DNA of 64,000 bases from an uncultured Lachnospiraceae bacterium (GTDB taxonomy: Bacteria; Bacillota; Clostridia; Lachnospirales; Lachnospiraceae), in NCBI GenBank assembly GCA_947652735.1, contig CANTEG010000014.1, positions 1 through 64,000 of the forward strand. The letters are read 5' to 3'. Every line of letters begins with the position of its first letter. Position 1 is the first letter of the stretch. A model generated the notes under the pieces. It was given only the letters and a program-made list of their open reading frames with translations, was not told the origin of the DNA and ran no database searches. Shown piece after piece: positions 11,697 to 55,728 of the stretch. A program made the translations under genes and the position numbers.

Positions 11697-11709
11697 AGAG
11701 GTATTTGTG

Positions 11710-12399
11710 ATGGGTATGGTATCAGAAATAACAATAAAAAATATGTATAGTCTTGAACACACAATGGCAGGAAAATACTTGGCAGAGCTCGCTTATCCGT
11801 GGGAGGCACTTCCACATATCAAGTATTATATCATGGAGATAGGGAAAACGCTTAGCAGTGATGAGTATGACGAAGTTTCCCCAAATGTGTGGATACACAA
11901 AAGTGCAAAGGTATTTGACTCAGCATATATTGCAGGACCTGCAATCATAGGACCTGAGACAGAGGTAAGACAGTGTGCATTCATAAGGGGAAATGCACTT
12001 GTAGGCGCAGGATGTGTAGTTGGAAATTCCACGGAGCTTAAAAACGTAATCATATTTGATAATGTTCAGGTGCCGCACTATAACTATGTGGGAGATTCTG
12101 TGCTTGGATATAAATCACACATGGGAGCAGGCTCCATTACATCAAATGTAAAAAGTGACAAAACAATTGTACATGTAAAGGGAACAAACAAAGAGGGAAA
12201 CTTTGATATAGATACGGGCTTAAAAAAGTTTGGTGCCATGCTTGGGGACTTTGTGGAGGTAGGCTGTAACAGTGTCTTAAATCCGGGAAGCGTAATCGGA
12301 AGTCACACAAATATATATCCGCTGTCTCCTGTAAGAGGTTATGTACCGTCAGACAGCATATATAAAACTGGCGGAGTCATAGCTGCCAAGTCACAGTAA
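11710..12399 (+). CDS. Left-handed beta-helix (hexapeptide-repeat) nucleotidyltransferase/acyltransferase-like protein
   Basis: From about residue 60 to 200 the protein is built of imperfect hexapeptide repeats (for example SAKVFDSAYIAGPAIIG and VEVGCNSVLNPGSVIG) that form a left-handed parallel beta-helix, as in the C-terminal half of GlmU. No GlmU-type pyrophosphorylase domain is present; the first 60 residues are a short helical region. Members of this group are usually annotated as UDP-N-acetylglucosamine pyrophosphorylase-related. The catalytic activity cannot be fixed from sequence, and a sugar-nucleotide or acetyl-transfer role is only inference. I use the ATG at 11710, with AGAGG 8 nt upstream. 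It follows topB by 13 nt. Its last codons are duplicated downstream (see the tandem repeat). Confidence 0.75.
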   Translation: MGMVSEITIKNMYSLEHTMAGKYLAELAYPWEALPHIKYYIMEIGKTLSSDEYDEVSPNVWIHKSAKVFDSAYIAGPAIIGPETEVRQCAFIRGNALVGAGCVVGNSTELKNVIIFDNVQVPHYNYVGDSVLGYKSHMGAGSITSNVKSDKTIVHVKGTNKEGNFDIDTGLKKFGAMLGDFVEVGCNSVLNPGSVIGSHTNIYPLSPVRGYVPSDSIYKTGGVIAAKSQ

Positions 12400-12464: not shown

Positions 12465-12473
12465 ACAAAGTGC

Positions 12474-12620
12474 GCCTCTAGGATACAGCTTATACAGTAA
12501 TGTAAAAACCGTTTGAAGACGTCGGTATTTAGGTGCCGTATTTGGGCACTTATGTACCGCTACGTCTGAGACGAGTGAAAACGAGTTCTTATGTTACTGT
12601 ATAAGCTGTATCCTAGAGGC
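12474..12620. repeat. 147-bp element with perfect 27-bp inverted repeats and a structured interior
   Basis: The arms at 12474-12500 and 12594-12620 are exactly complementary over 27 bp. The 93-nt interior can fold further: agacgt/acgtct with cggta/taccg, an inner gtgcc/ggcac hairpin and a possible cgttt/aaacg pairing. There is no T-run after the stem, so it is not a simple terminator. It sits between two convergent genes. It could be a small mobile or REP-like element, or a structured RNA. No flanking target duplication is visible. Confidence 0.75.
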
Positions 12621-12635
12621 AGCATAAGTCCAACC

Positions 12636-13082
12636 TTATTTTACCTCGGCAGGAACAAGCGCCTGTTTTACCGCCTCCATGATAATGATGGAAGTATATT
12701 GTGTGTCACTGGAATAGGTGATTTCACTGAGTGAGTTGACACTGGTTATCTGAGAGTTTATTTCGTCAAGCGATGGAGTTATAAGCGGATACATTGCAGT
12801 TACGGTTTCGTCGAGATTTTTAATATCCACGTGAGAAATTGCATCCTTGTCAACGGTGACGCATACCTGAAGCTGGGCGCCTCCTAAATTGAGCGACGAG
12901 GTATAAATGCCGGGAGCATATGTAGTTACAGCTTCGGTACTTGATGTCTCATTTTCAGGTTTATCATTTGGACTGAACATGTAAAAAAGCAGGAGCACTA
13001 AAAGTACGCCAAGAATAATAAATATACCTGTGTAAATCAGCTCTTTTGACTTAAGGACAATTATTTTGGTATTAGAAGACAT
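12636..13082 (-). CDS. Membrane-anchored FMN_bind-like protein
   Basis: The 148-residue product has a cytoplasmic start, one membrane segment (about residues 16-38) and an extracytoplasmic domain of about 100 residues. That domain resembles the FMN_bind fold, in which a threonine of an SGAT-type motif carries covalent FMN. Here the corresponding stretch reads SLSEITYSS followed by EAVKQALV, so the flavinylation motif is degenerate and flavin attachment is doubtful. The start is the second possible ATG (13082), because GGGGAG lies 8 nt before it while the first ATG has no ribosome binding site. It lies 71 nt downstream of the phosphoribosyltransferase-like gene on the same strand and may be co-transcribed. 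Confidence 0.65.
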   Translation of the reverse strand: MSSNTKIIVLKSKELIYTGIFIILGVLLVLLLFYMFSPNDKPENETSSTEAVTTYAPGIYTSSLNLGGAQLQVCVTVDKDAISHVDIKNLDETVTAMYPLITPSLDEINSQITSVNSLSEITYSSDTQYTSIIIMEAVKQALVPAEVK

Positions 13083-13153
13083 AATAAAACTCCCCATTAA
13101 GATTATTATTAAATATATTCTCGATGAGGAGCTTTTATGCTTATATATGACAT

Positions 13154-20871: not shown

Positions 20872-20923
20872 TAGAGACGAGTAAAACGAACCATTCATGG
20901 AATATATTGAAGGCGGCATACCG

Positions 20924-21020
20924 TATTATCGAAAAGTAGTTGCAGCGAAAGCGTGCCTTGTGGTGATATTGTGTATATTGTACAACGGACGTTCAAAAAA
21001 CAATGTTGTGCAGTTGACTA
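20924..21020 (+). repeat. Internally deleted copy of the MITE-like element
   Basis: A 19-nt block (20924-20942) and a 52-nt block (20943-20994) are identical to 54751-54769 and 54861-54912. The 91 nt that separate the blocks in the other copy are absent here. The right end then diverges (about 75 percent similar to about 21020). The outer left end is not clearly recognisable. It lies in the leader of queF, ending about 30 nt before the ATG. Confidence 0.8.
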
Positions 21021-53784: not shown

Positions 53785-54711
53785 ATGATTAACAAGCTGA
53801 TTAAAAATATTGAGGAAAAGGATGCACCTATCGTTGTAGGGCTTGACCCAATGATGGATTATATTCCTGAACATATAAAGAAAGAAGCATTTGATGAATA
53901 TGGCGAGACCTTAGAGGGTGCGGCAAGTGCAATATGGGTATACAACAAGGGAATCATTGATGCAACCCACGACCTTATTCCCGCAGTTAAGCCGCAGATT
54001 GCAATGTATGAGCAGTTTGGTATCGAGGGTCTTAAGGCATACAAGAAGACATGTGACTATGCAAAAAGTAAAAATCTTGTTGTTATAGGAGATATAAAAA
54101 GAGGAGATATCGGTTCAACGTCAGCCGCATATGCAGTTGGTCATTTGGGCAAGGTTACGGTTGGAGAAAAAACGTACGCTCCGTTCGATGAGGATTTTGT
54201 TACCGTAAATCCGTATTTGGGAACGGATGGTGTAAAGCCATTTGTGGATGTTTGTAAGGAGTGTGGTAAAGGTATTTTCGTGCTCGTAAAAACCTCTAAC
54301 CCATCGTCAGGAGAGTTTCAGGACAGGCTTGTTGATGGCAGACCGCTTTATGAGCTTGTGGCAGAGAAGGTTGTGGAATGGGGCGAAGTCTGCATGGGTG
54401 ACACGTACAGCAATGTAGGCTGTGTCATAGGTGCAACTTACCCTGAAATGGGCAAGACTTTAAGAAAGCTTATGCCAAATACATATATTCTTGTGCCGGG
54501 TTACGGGGCACAGGGCGGTAAGGCATCTGATTTGGTTCATTATTTTAATGCAGACGGACTTGGTGCAATTGTCAATTCATCAAGAGGAATCATAGCTGCC
54601 TATAAGCAGGAGAAATATACATCATTCGGTGATAAGGCATACGCTGATGCAAGTCGTCAGGCTGTTGTGGATATGCTTGCGGATATAAACGGAGCACGTG
54701 CGGCAAGGTAA
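53785..54711 (+). CDS. pyrF: Orotidine-5'-phosphate decarboxylase, type 2
   Basis: Last step in UMP synthesis. The 308-residue length and the core GDIKRGDIGSTSAAYA mark the longer type 2 subfamily, and VPGYGAQGGK is the phosphate-binding region. AAGGAGA precedes the ATG. A MITE-like element lies directly downstream before pyrK. Confidence 0.96.
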   Translation: MINKLIKNIEEKDAPIVVGLDPMMDYIPEHIKKEAFDEYGETLEGAASAIWVYNKGIIDATHDLIPAVKPQIAMYEQFGIEGLKAYKKTCDYAKSKNLVVIGDIKRGDIGSTSAAYAVGHLGKVTVGEKTYAPFDEDFVTVNPYLGTDGVKPFVDVCKECGKGIFVLVKTSNPSSGEFQDRLVDGRPLYELVAEKVVEWGEVCMGDTYSNVGCVIGATYPEMGKTLRKLMPNTYILVPGYGAQGGKASDLVHYFNADGLGAIVNSSRGIIAAYKQEKYTSFGDKAYADASRQAVVDMLADINGARAAR

Positions 54712-54731
54712 AGGGCAGAAGTAACAATAAT

Positions 54732-54938
54732 AGGCAATTGAGAAACGCCATATTATCGAAAAGTAGTTGTACAATATACACAATATCGCAAGCAAGGTGC
54801 TTTGGAGCCGCCGGTGCTTAGCAAGGTATTTTCGAGCTTAGCACCGTTGCGAGCGACAAGCAGCGAAAGCGTGCCTTGTGGTGATATTGTGTATATTGTA
54901 CAACGGACGTTCGGAAAAACAACGTTTCGCAATTGTCT
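54732..54938. mobile_element. MITE-like element with 56-bp terminal inverted repeats
   Basis: The ends (54732-54787 and 54883-54938) are inverted repeats matching at 43 of 56 positions, with a perfect 22-bp inner block (54766-54787 with 54883-54904). The element is flanked by the 12-bp direct repeat agtaacaataat at 54720-54731 and 54939-54950, as expected of a target duplication. Inside, cggtgcttagc and gcttagcaccg (54812-54822 and 54836-54846) make another stem. There is no coding capacity, so mobility would need an unlinked transposase. A related, internally deleted copy is at 20924-21020. Confidence 0.8.
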
Positions 54939-54963
54939 AGTAACAATAATTACAGGAGGAAAT

Positions 54964-55728
54964 ATGGGAAAGGTTAAGATAAGTGCAGATATTGTAAGGC
55001 AGGAAAATATTGCAACTGATATTTTCTCATTGATTATAAGGGCGGAGGAGATAGCAGCTTCGGCAAAGCCAGGGCAGTTTGTCGATTTGTATTCGTCAGA
55101 CGGAAGCAGGCTGCTTCCAAGACCGATTAGTATTTGCGGTATAGACAAAGATGCAGGCACATTAAGACTTGTGTATCGTGTGGCAGGGAAAGGAACGAAA
55201 GAGTTTTCGACACTTACCTCAGACCATCAGATAGATGTGCTTGGACCGTTAGGAAATGGGTTTACGCTTTCTGACAAAAAAGCAATCATTATAGGCGGAG
55301 GAATTGGCATTCCGCCTATGCTTCAGCTTGCAAAATCCCTTGATTGTGAAAAAAGCATTGTCCTCGGTTACAGGGATGAAGAATTTTTAAGCACAGAGTT
55401 TAAAAAGTACGGAACAGTATATATGTCAAGTGATAACGGTGCTTTTGGCGTTAAGGGAACTGTTATGGATGCCATAAAGGAATATGGGATAACGGGAGAT
55501 GTAATATATGCATGTGGACCGTTACCGATGCTTCGGGCAATTAAAGAATATGCAGCCGAAAATAATATTGATGCACAGATTTCCCTTGAGGAGCGTATGG
55601 CATGTGGAATCGGGGCATGTCTTGGCTGTGTATGCAGCTCCACTGATGTGGATGACCACTCAAAAGTAAAAAATAAAAGAGTCTGCAAGGATGGACCTGT
55701 TTTTTATGCTGAGGAGGTGGAATTATAA
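54964..55728 (+). CDS. pyrK: Dihydroorotate dehydrogenase B, electron-transfer subunit
   Basis: FAD and [2Fe-2S] protein that passes electrons from dihydroorotate oxidation by PyrD to NAD. The 254-residue protein has the ferredoxin-reductase-like FAD and NAD domains (LLPRPISICG, IIGGGIGIPPMLQLA) and the cluster cysteines in MACGIGACLGCVC plus RVCKDGPVF. The start was set at 54964 by AGGAGG, 4 nt after which the ATG lies; 54 codons of open frame further upstream run through the MITE-like element and are not protein-like. Its stop overlaps pyrD by one base. Confidence 0.96.
   Translation: MGKVKISADIVRQENIATDIFSLIIRAEEIAASAKPGQFVDLYSSDGSRLLPRPISICGIDKDAGTLRLVYRVAGKGTKEFSTLTSDHQIDVLGPLGNGFTLSDKKAIIIGGGIGIPPMLQLAKSLDCEKSIVLGYRDEEFLSTEFKKYGTVYMSSDNGAFGVKGTVMDAIKEYGITGDVIYACGPLPMLRAIKEYAAENNIDAQISLEERMACGIGACLGCVCSSTDVDDHSKVKNKRVCKDGPVFYAEEVEL

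Follow-up and report, generated by a model that had tools for sequence, protein, structure and literature searches.

A MITE with a conserved structured core between pyrF and pyrK of an uncultured Lachnospiraceae bacterium

Miniature inverted-repeat transposable elements (MITEs) are common, and the element that we describe here, from between two pyrimidine genes of an uncultured Lachnospiraceae bacterium, resembles them in being short and without a gene of its own, in its terminal inverted repeats (TIRs), duplications, many copies and empty sites, and in the existence of an insertion sequence (IS) with the same TIRs as one of its two forms (type B, below). It is unlike them in that two TIR types enclose one covarying interior, which is also found without either TIR. 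The nearest analogue that we have seen is the bcr1-bcr3 repeats of the Bacillus cereus group, a different bacterial group, which are MITE-like and often lie within UTRs or operon intergenic regions (PMC3446304); the likeness is an analogy in description, and the passages considered do not mention the varying paired stem or the GNRA mini-hairpin of the present element. The REP/REPIN elements with RAYT transposases are, like it, short and palindromic repeats that occur between genes in high copy number (PMC3116915, PMC2817692). Set against what we take the RAYT systems to be, the element differs in having TIR-bounded copies with duplications and a DDE-type IS that shares their ends.

Neither the window stretch nor 15 diverse loci matched Rfam 15 at gathering score; sub-threshold hits to snoZ161_228 (E 0.25, window stretch) and MIR810 (E 0.008, 33 bits where gathering requires 170, diverse loci) were taken as chance. 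A literature search, with most subscription journals outside its coverage, returned no paper recognisable as dealing with this element, which does not prove it unpublished.

The pyrF-pyrK element and its empty sites

The window (the whole 64,000-nucleotide stretch analysed, taken from the start of contig 14) reads as pyrF at 53785-54711 followed by pyrK, with its ATG at 54964 and AGGAGG at 54954-54959. A first-pass annotation had proposed a MITE-like element in this gap, and the repeats on which it drew are present: the exact direct repeats AGTAACAATAAT at 54720-54731 and 54939-54950, and inverted arms (54728-54787 and 54883-54942) that are 77% complementary across 60 nt, including a perfect 22-bp pairing of 54766-54787 with 54883-54904. 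Because other copies end at TAG...CTA, we set the element at 54731-54939 and the strict duplication at 10 bp (Table 1). The 12-bp flanking repeat of that annotation is thus exact, but its left copy consists of one flank base, the 10-bp duplication and the first element base, one base of the element being included at each end; similarly, what had been called a 56-bp TIR is a real inverted arm, but is made up of a conserved 16-bp TIR plus an arm of an internal hairpin. The view that the element parts pyrF from pyrK, with the pyrK ribosome-binding site directly behind it, agrees with the coordinates. The predicted RNA fold has a free energy of -101.1 kcal/mol (z -11.2), equalled by none of 200 shuffles.

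Table 1. Features of the element between pyrF and pyrK (positions in the window)
Feature	Position	Strand	Description and basis
Whole non-autonomous element (MITE)	54731..54939	+	209 bp, TAG...CTA; copy comparison
Target-site duplication, left	54721..54730	.	GTAACAATAA; sequence
Target-site duplication, right	54940..54949	.	GTAACAATAA; sequence
Left TIR, type A	54731..54746	+	TAGGCAATTGAGAAAC, common form TAGNCAATTGCGAAAC; shared ends
Right TIR, type A	54924..54939	-	TAGACAATTGCGAAAC on the minus strand; shared ends
Long internal stem, left arm	54766..54789	+	fold
Long internal stem, right arm	54880..54904	+	fold
Conserved structured core	54790..54879	+	covariance-model match 54775-54895, 127.5 bits (a seed member's score, as this copy belongs to the model seed)
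GNRA mini-hairpin of the core, GC-GAAA-GC	54863..54870	+	loop parsing
pyrK ribosome-binding site and ATG, beyond the element	54954..54966	+	sequence

Empty sites in relatives, named beforehand as a check, were found. PyrK was located in 36 of the 37 same-genus genomes and 30 loci, our own genome included, were examined, the gap being all that separates PyrF's final codon from the start of PyrK, stop codon included. At 28 of these 30 the gap is 3-102 nt and holds no match to the covariance model described below, a screen for the modelled core as distinct from short TIR-only remnants. The element lies within the gap only in our genome (255 nt) and in G025 (299 nt, 59.3 bits), and we read the latter as an independent insertion because its flanks differ; the model also matches one further pyrK locus of the 30, G008, at a place outside its 86-nt gap. 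Two congeners whose PyrK is 91% identical have gaps of 45 nt (G011) and 17 nt (G028). Two named records, L031 (an uncultured Lachnospiraceae) and L032 (whose label, Bacteroides sp., we think a misnomer), have junctions identical to those of G011 and G028; they are probably the same genomes and therefore provide no extra evidence. Across 54 named PyrK loci, 46 of whose junctions were inspected, a model search of all 54 placed the core in L045 only, about 2.3 kb beyond pyrK.

Copies, two types of end and a transposase

Searching our genome (2.77 Mb, 40 contigs) by blastn at E<=1e-3 gave 57 matches, a count that takes in fragments as well as places matched a second time on the opposite strand; 13 of them, the window's copy among these, span at least 150 of the 231 query positions, so the several copies expected of a MITE are there. 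A scripted survey of loci turned up 56 distinct elements bounded on either side by a type-A end. They measure 51-266 bp, and the window's copy and some orthologs are among them. Their flanks also bear out the prediction of differing duplications: the direct-repeat score is 8 or more in 26 of the 56, against 4 of 1100 re-paired flanks, and below 8 in the other 30. Exact type-A duplications of at least 10 bp reach 13 bp, the limit of the scoring, as in TTGTCCTTACA (L003), AATAATGTTATA (L112) and AAAAGTGTTAAT (L299). Type-A ends also enclose pieces of 50-100 bp, several of which have no core. The exact type-A TIR pattern occurs in 9 of the 37 same-genus genomes (a reversed control gave 2 matches), and G379, of another genus, has by our count 20 type-A end pairs with about 200-210 bp between their outer limits. 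These elements are short and without a transposase gene, with common TIRs, differing duplications and empty sites, and the earlier reading as a MITE is supported by TIRs, copy number, duplications and empty sites alike.

In other copies the same interior is enclosed by ends of a second type, type B (TAGNNATGAGCAAAAC); of 118 genus copies, 38 have type-A ends, 14 type-B and 66 neither. A direct-repeat score of 8 or more was reached by 9 of 15 type-B elements (four of the nine being IS copies or an IS derivative) and by none of 550 re-paired flanks. The two types agree, by eye, at 12 of 16 TIR positions, variable ones counted as agreeing, from which we infer that related transposases serve them both.

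The DDE_Tnp_1 domain (PF01609) was absent from our genome and from all but one of eight more that were searched; the single match in those eight, in G015, lies between two type-B ends. In a protein search that covered 397 genomes of the family, the transposase was matched in 6 (E<=1e-20), with fragments among the matches. The IS in G177 is 1558 bp long; its type-B TIRs agree at 14 of 16 positions, its flanks carry the duplication GAAATACAA, and its 435-aa frame is uninterrupted. The copies in G624 and G015 are broken and have 8-bp duplications. The G177-type transposase matches DDE_Tnp_1 at 51.3 bits (cut-off 23) and DUF772 at 28.4 bits; this pair of domains, and IS1182 as the best NCBIfam match, make the IS IS1182-like, but at 92.7 bits the transposase falls far under the curated IS1182 cut-off of 270. 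As type B bounds both MITEs and DDE_Tnp_1 IS copies, mobilisation in trans is likely. The IS link was found for type B only: genome searches for type-A end pairs gave no IS or transposase with type-A TIRs. Candidates for an autonomous type-A element, namely spans of 4.3-4.4 kb in G001 and G028 (L233, L234) and of 4.2 kb in G379 (L289), were rejected, being ordinary genes between separate MITEs.

Several further copies may be recorded here. At L313:1471-1949, type-B ends enclose a transposase remnant in an element of 479 bp, which seems to have arisen from the IS by internal deletion. The window itself holds a degraded 149-bp copy at 20872-21020, with most of the core missing, a type-B-like left end (TAGAGACGAGTAAAAC), a type-A-like right end and an imperfect duplication (TATAGAATAA / TATAGGATAA), and has the look of a hybrid between type A and type B. 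It also holds, at about 12470-12630, a divergent core copy with its own long near-perfect stem (model match 12489-12605 on the plus strand, 44 bits, E 1.5e-8), between the convergent frames 11707-12399 (+) and 12636-13097 (-). The plasmids and phages searched gave no match; a pattern scan of viral contigs gave 36 stretches with one match each.

The structured core and its fold

The interior of the element is a core of about 90 nt on a long stem whose sequence differs among copies: the near-perfect part is mostly 24-35 bp and its sequence is unlike in most non-orthologous copies. BLAST matches in other congeners are confined to the element's middle, about 110 nt at most. A covariance model built from 20 seed copies matches all 37 same-genus genomes, our own included, with 1-55 matches in each. 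In samples of the order and the class it matches at least 66 of 392 genomes (at least 33 of 173 genera) and at least 11 of 391 genomes (at least 7 of 222 genera); these are lower bounds, as scoring was limited to 9 candidates per genome and the filters were stricter. All positives in both samples belong to one family, the number of other-family genomes sampled not being given. A record titled Lactobacillus rogosae has one core copy, at 81 bits. The core is present without either TIR type in the genus and in others of the family, and we read the interior as an undescribed, RNA-folding cargo.

That the core has a conserved fold is well supported. Among 45 distinct sequences (of 46 rows, 32 of these rows being from other genera), both partners vary in 43 of 46 pairs and covariation is 0.771, against 0.200 when shuffled and at most 0.116 when slid, and in a second alignment of 59 distinct genus sequences both partners vary in 37 of 46 pairs; both alignments were fitted to the model, and related copies in them are not independent. 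Among the 138 copies parsed, the mini-hairpin loop conforms to GNRA in 136 (all loops: GAAA 55, GAGA 51, GCAA 18, GGGA 4, GGAA 4, GTAA 2, GCGA 2, GTCA 1 and AAAA 1), all 20 seed copies of the model having GNRA-type loops; the 11 loops of 149 that went unparsed, their closing pairs being different, are all GNRA by eye. Across 157 distinct rows, likewise fitted to the model, the core pairs comprise 3980 Watson-Crick, 475 GT, 58 AC and 232 other, with a few weak opposite-strand matches among the rows and much of the GT excess carried by a small number of conserved positions.

These figures bear differently on the core and on the stem. In the stem arms beyond the model nearly all pairs are Watson-Crick; the genus has 13 GT and 6 AC in 52 copies, and the other genera 8 GT and 18 AC in 28 copies. 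With so few G-U pairs there, a DNA-level process may be what keeps the arms complementary, and the stem arms might then owe their pairing to correction between inverted repeats, by template switching, and not to selection for an RNA fold. The occurrence of copies in both orientations is consistent with this. A comparison of orthologs at 17 locus pairs is mixed: the 7 pairs that were totalled (at least 22 of 26 positions paired, unequal arms) have 33 double Watson-Crick changes, 7 GT, no AC and 5 other, and among the 10 omitted the arms are equal in 4, while the remaining 6 fall short of 22 of 26 paired, with one-sided changes (GT 10, AC 7) that favour correction and some register problems. Correction does not account so readily for loops that vary in sequence yet stay GNRA, for core wobbles that lie mainly on the sense strand, or for a core that is a branched fold with covarying internal helices and not a simple palindrome. 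We consider DNA-level correction unlikely, if worth keeping in view; the reading of the stem as sense RNA is not settled.

A different account would make the core the non-coding RNA of a retroelement, of an intron or of an RNA-guided element, and not the cargo of a DDE transposon. Its RNA-like nature, its high copy number, the variation of its stem sequences and the 66 genus copies without recognisable TIRs would all fit such an origin; TIR-bounded copies with 10-13-bp duplications, TIRs in common with a DDE_Tnp_1 IS and the lack of any Rfam match at gathering score argue against it, and we hold it to be most improbable.

Some arrangements of copies deserve mention in their own right. Copies that precede one and the same gene in sister species have stems changed on both arms that remain largely paired (L092/L224; L198/L211; L196 (3203-3318)/L227; L113/L204). 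In other genera, L173-L179 and L182 hold inverted pairs of cores 45-470 bp apart with different stems, L173-L179 having been chosen because a core pair had been seen there and L182 not so chosen. At L173:900-1110 a core is nested among GGGGACGG/GGGGACAGT repeats, which presumably resemble REP-type palindromes.

Orientation, the pyr transcript and significance

The site just upstream of pyrK, the strong fold and the covariation invite the view that the hairpin is a cis-regulatory RNA, a riboswitch or attenuator, of the pyr operon. Such an RNA would be expected to keep its place and orientation before pyr genes, and this was not found: the element is absent between pyrF and pyrK at all but two of the 30 same-genus loci, and its copies adjoin many different genes. 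The first-pass annotation had also suggested that the hairpins may alter expression of pyrKD; no terminator-like or promoter-like site was found between pyrF and pyrK, and the pyrK ribosome-binding site lies outside the hairpin. Orientation was scored after omitting 28 of 185 matches, across which a crude gene caller had put a frame. A gene start lies within 120 nt downstream in 63 of the 118 genus copies and on the other side in 38, both being possible for one copy. Sense and antisense copies number 55:35 in the genus (p 0.045), 8:14 in other genera and 63:49 overall (p 0.22). The genus copies without recognisable TIRs lean to sense (34:16, p 0.015, as one of several comparisons), which favours regulation; the TIR-bounded genus copies are balanced, at 15:14 and 6:5, and this argues against ordinary cis-regulation. 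With these balanced counts and the overall 63:49 we dropped the idea, prompted by the copies first inspected by eye, of a general bias toward the next start codon, and with it the reading as a general regulator; cis-regulation of the pyr operon seems to us very hard to sustain.

We propose with considerable confidence, as a joint account, that a type-A MITE inserted between pyrF and pyrK with a 10-bp duplication, was probably moved in trans, carries a core that probably folds as RNA and would give the mRNA a tolerated hairpin. In this scheme a MITE with TAGNCAATTGCGAAAC ends would have entered the gap in the organism's own lineage, duplicating 10 bp of target; type-A MITEs are, or were, presumably moved in trans by a related transposase, itself not found. 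The structured core on its long stem would be maintained by base pairing and not by sequence, exists beyond both TIR types, and, upon transcription of the host operon, most probably folds as RNA. Within the pyr mRNA we would expect a tolerated hairpin that leaves the pyrK ribosome-binding site free and is not a terminator; it might perhaps serve as an RNase III processing site.

More tentatively, and with rather less than even confidence, we suggest that the core represents a mobile structured RNA of a new class, observed to date in one bacterial family. Its fold (GNRA mini-hairpin, branched core and a long stem free to change in sequence) would be kept while more than one type of transposon end spread it, and it would act at the RNA level, either on the transcripts in which it lies or in trans. 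For a MITE it is unusual to find heavy compensatory change in the interior together with presence in every one of the genus genomes and in so many genera of the order sample (37/37 and at least 33/173), and this suggests that, within a transposon assumed to be passive, selection acts on a fold. For annotation, intergenic hairpins of this kind could be mistaken for terminators or riboswitches. Elements of this kind could also serve to test if the insertions of bacterial MITEs are rendered tolerable or useful by RNA that the MITEs carry.
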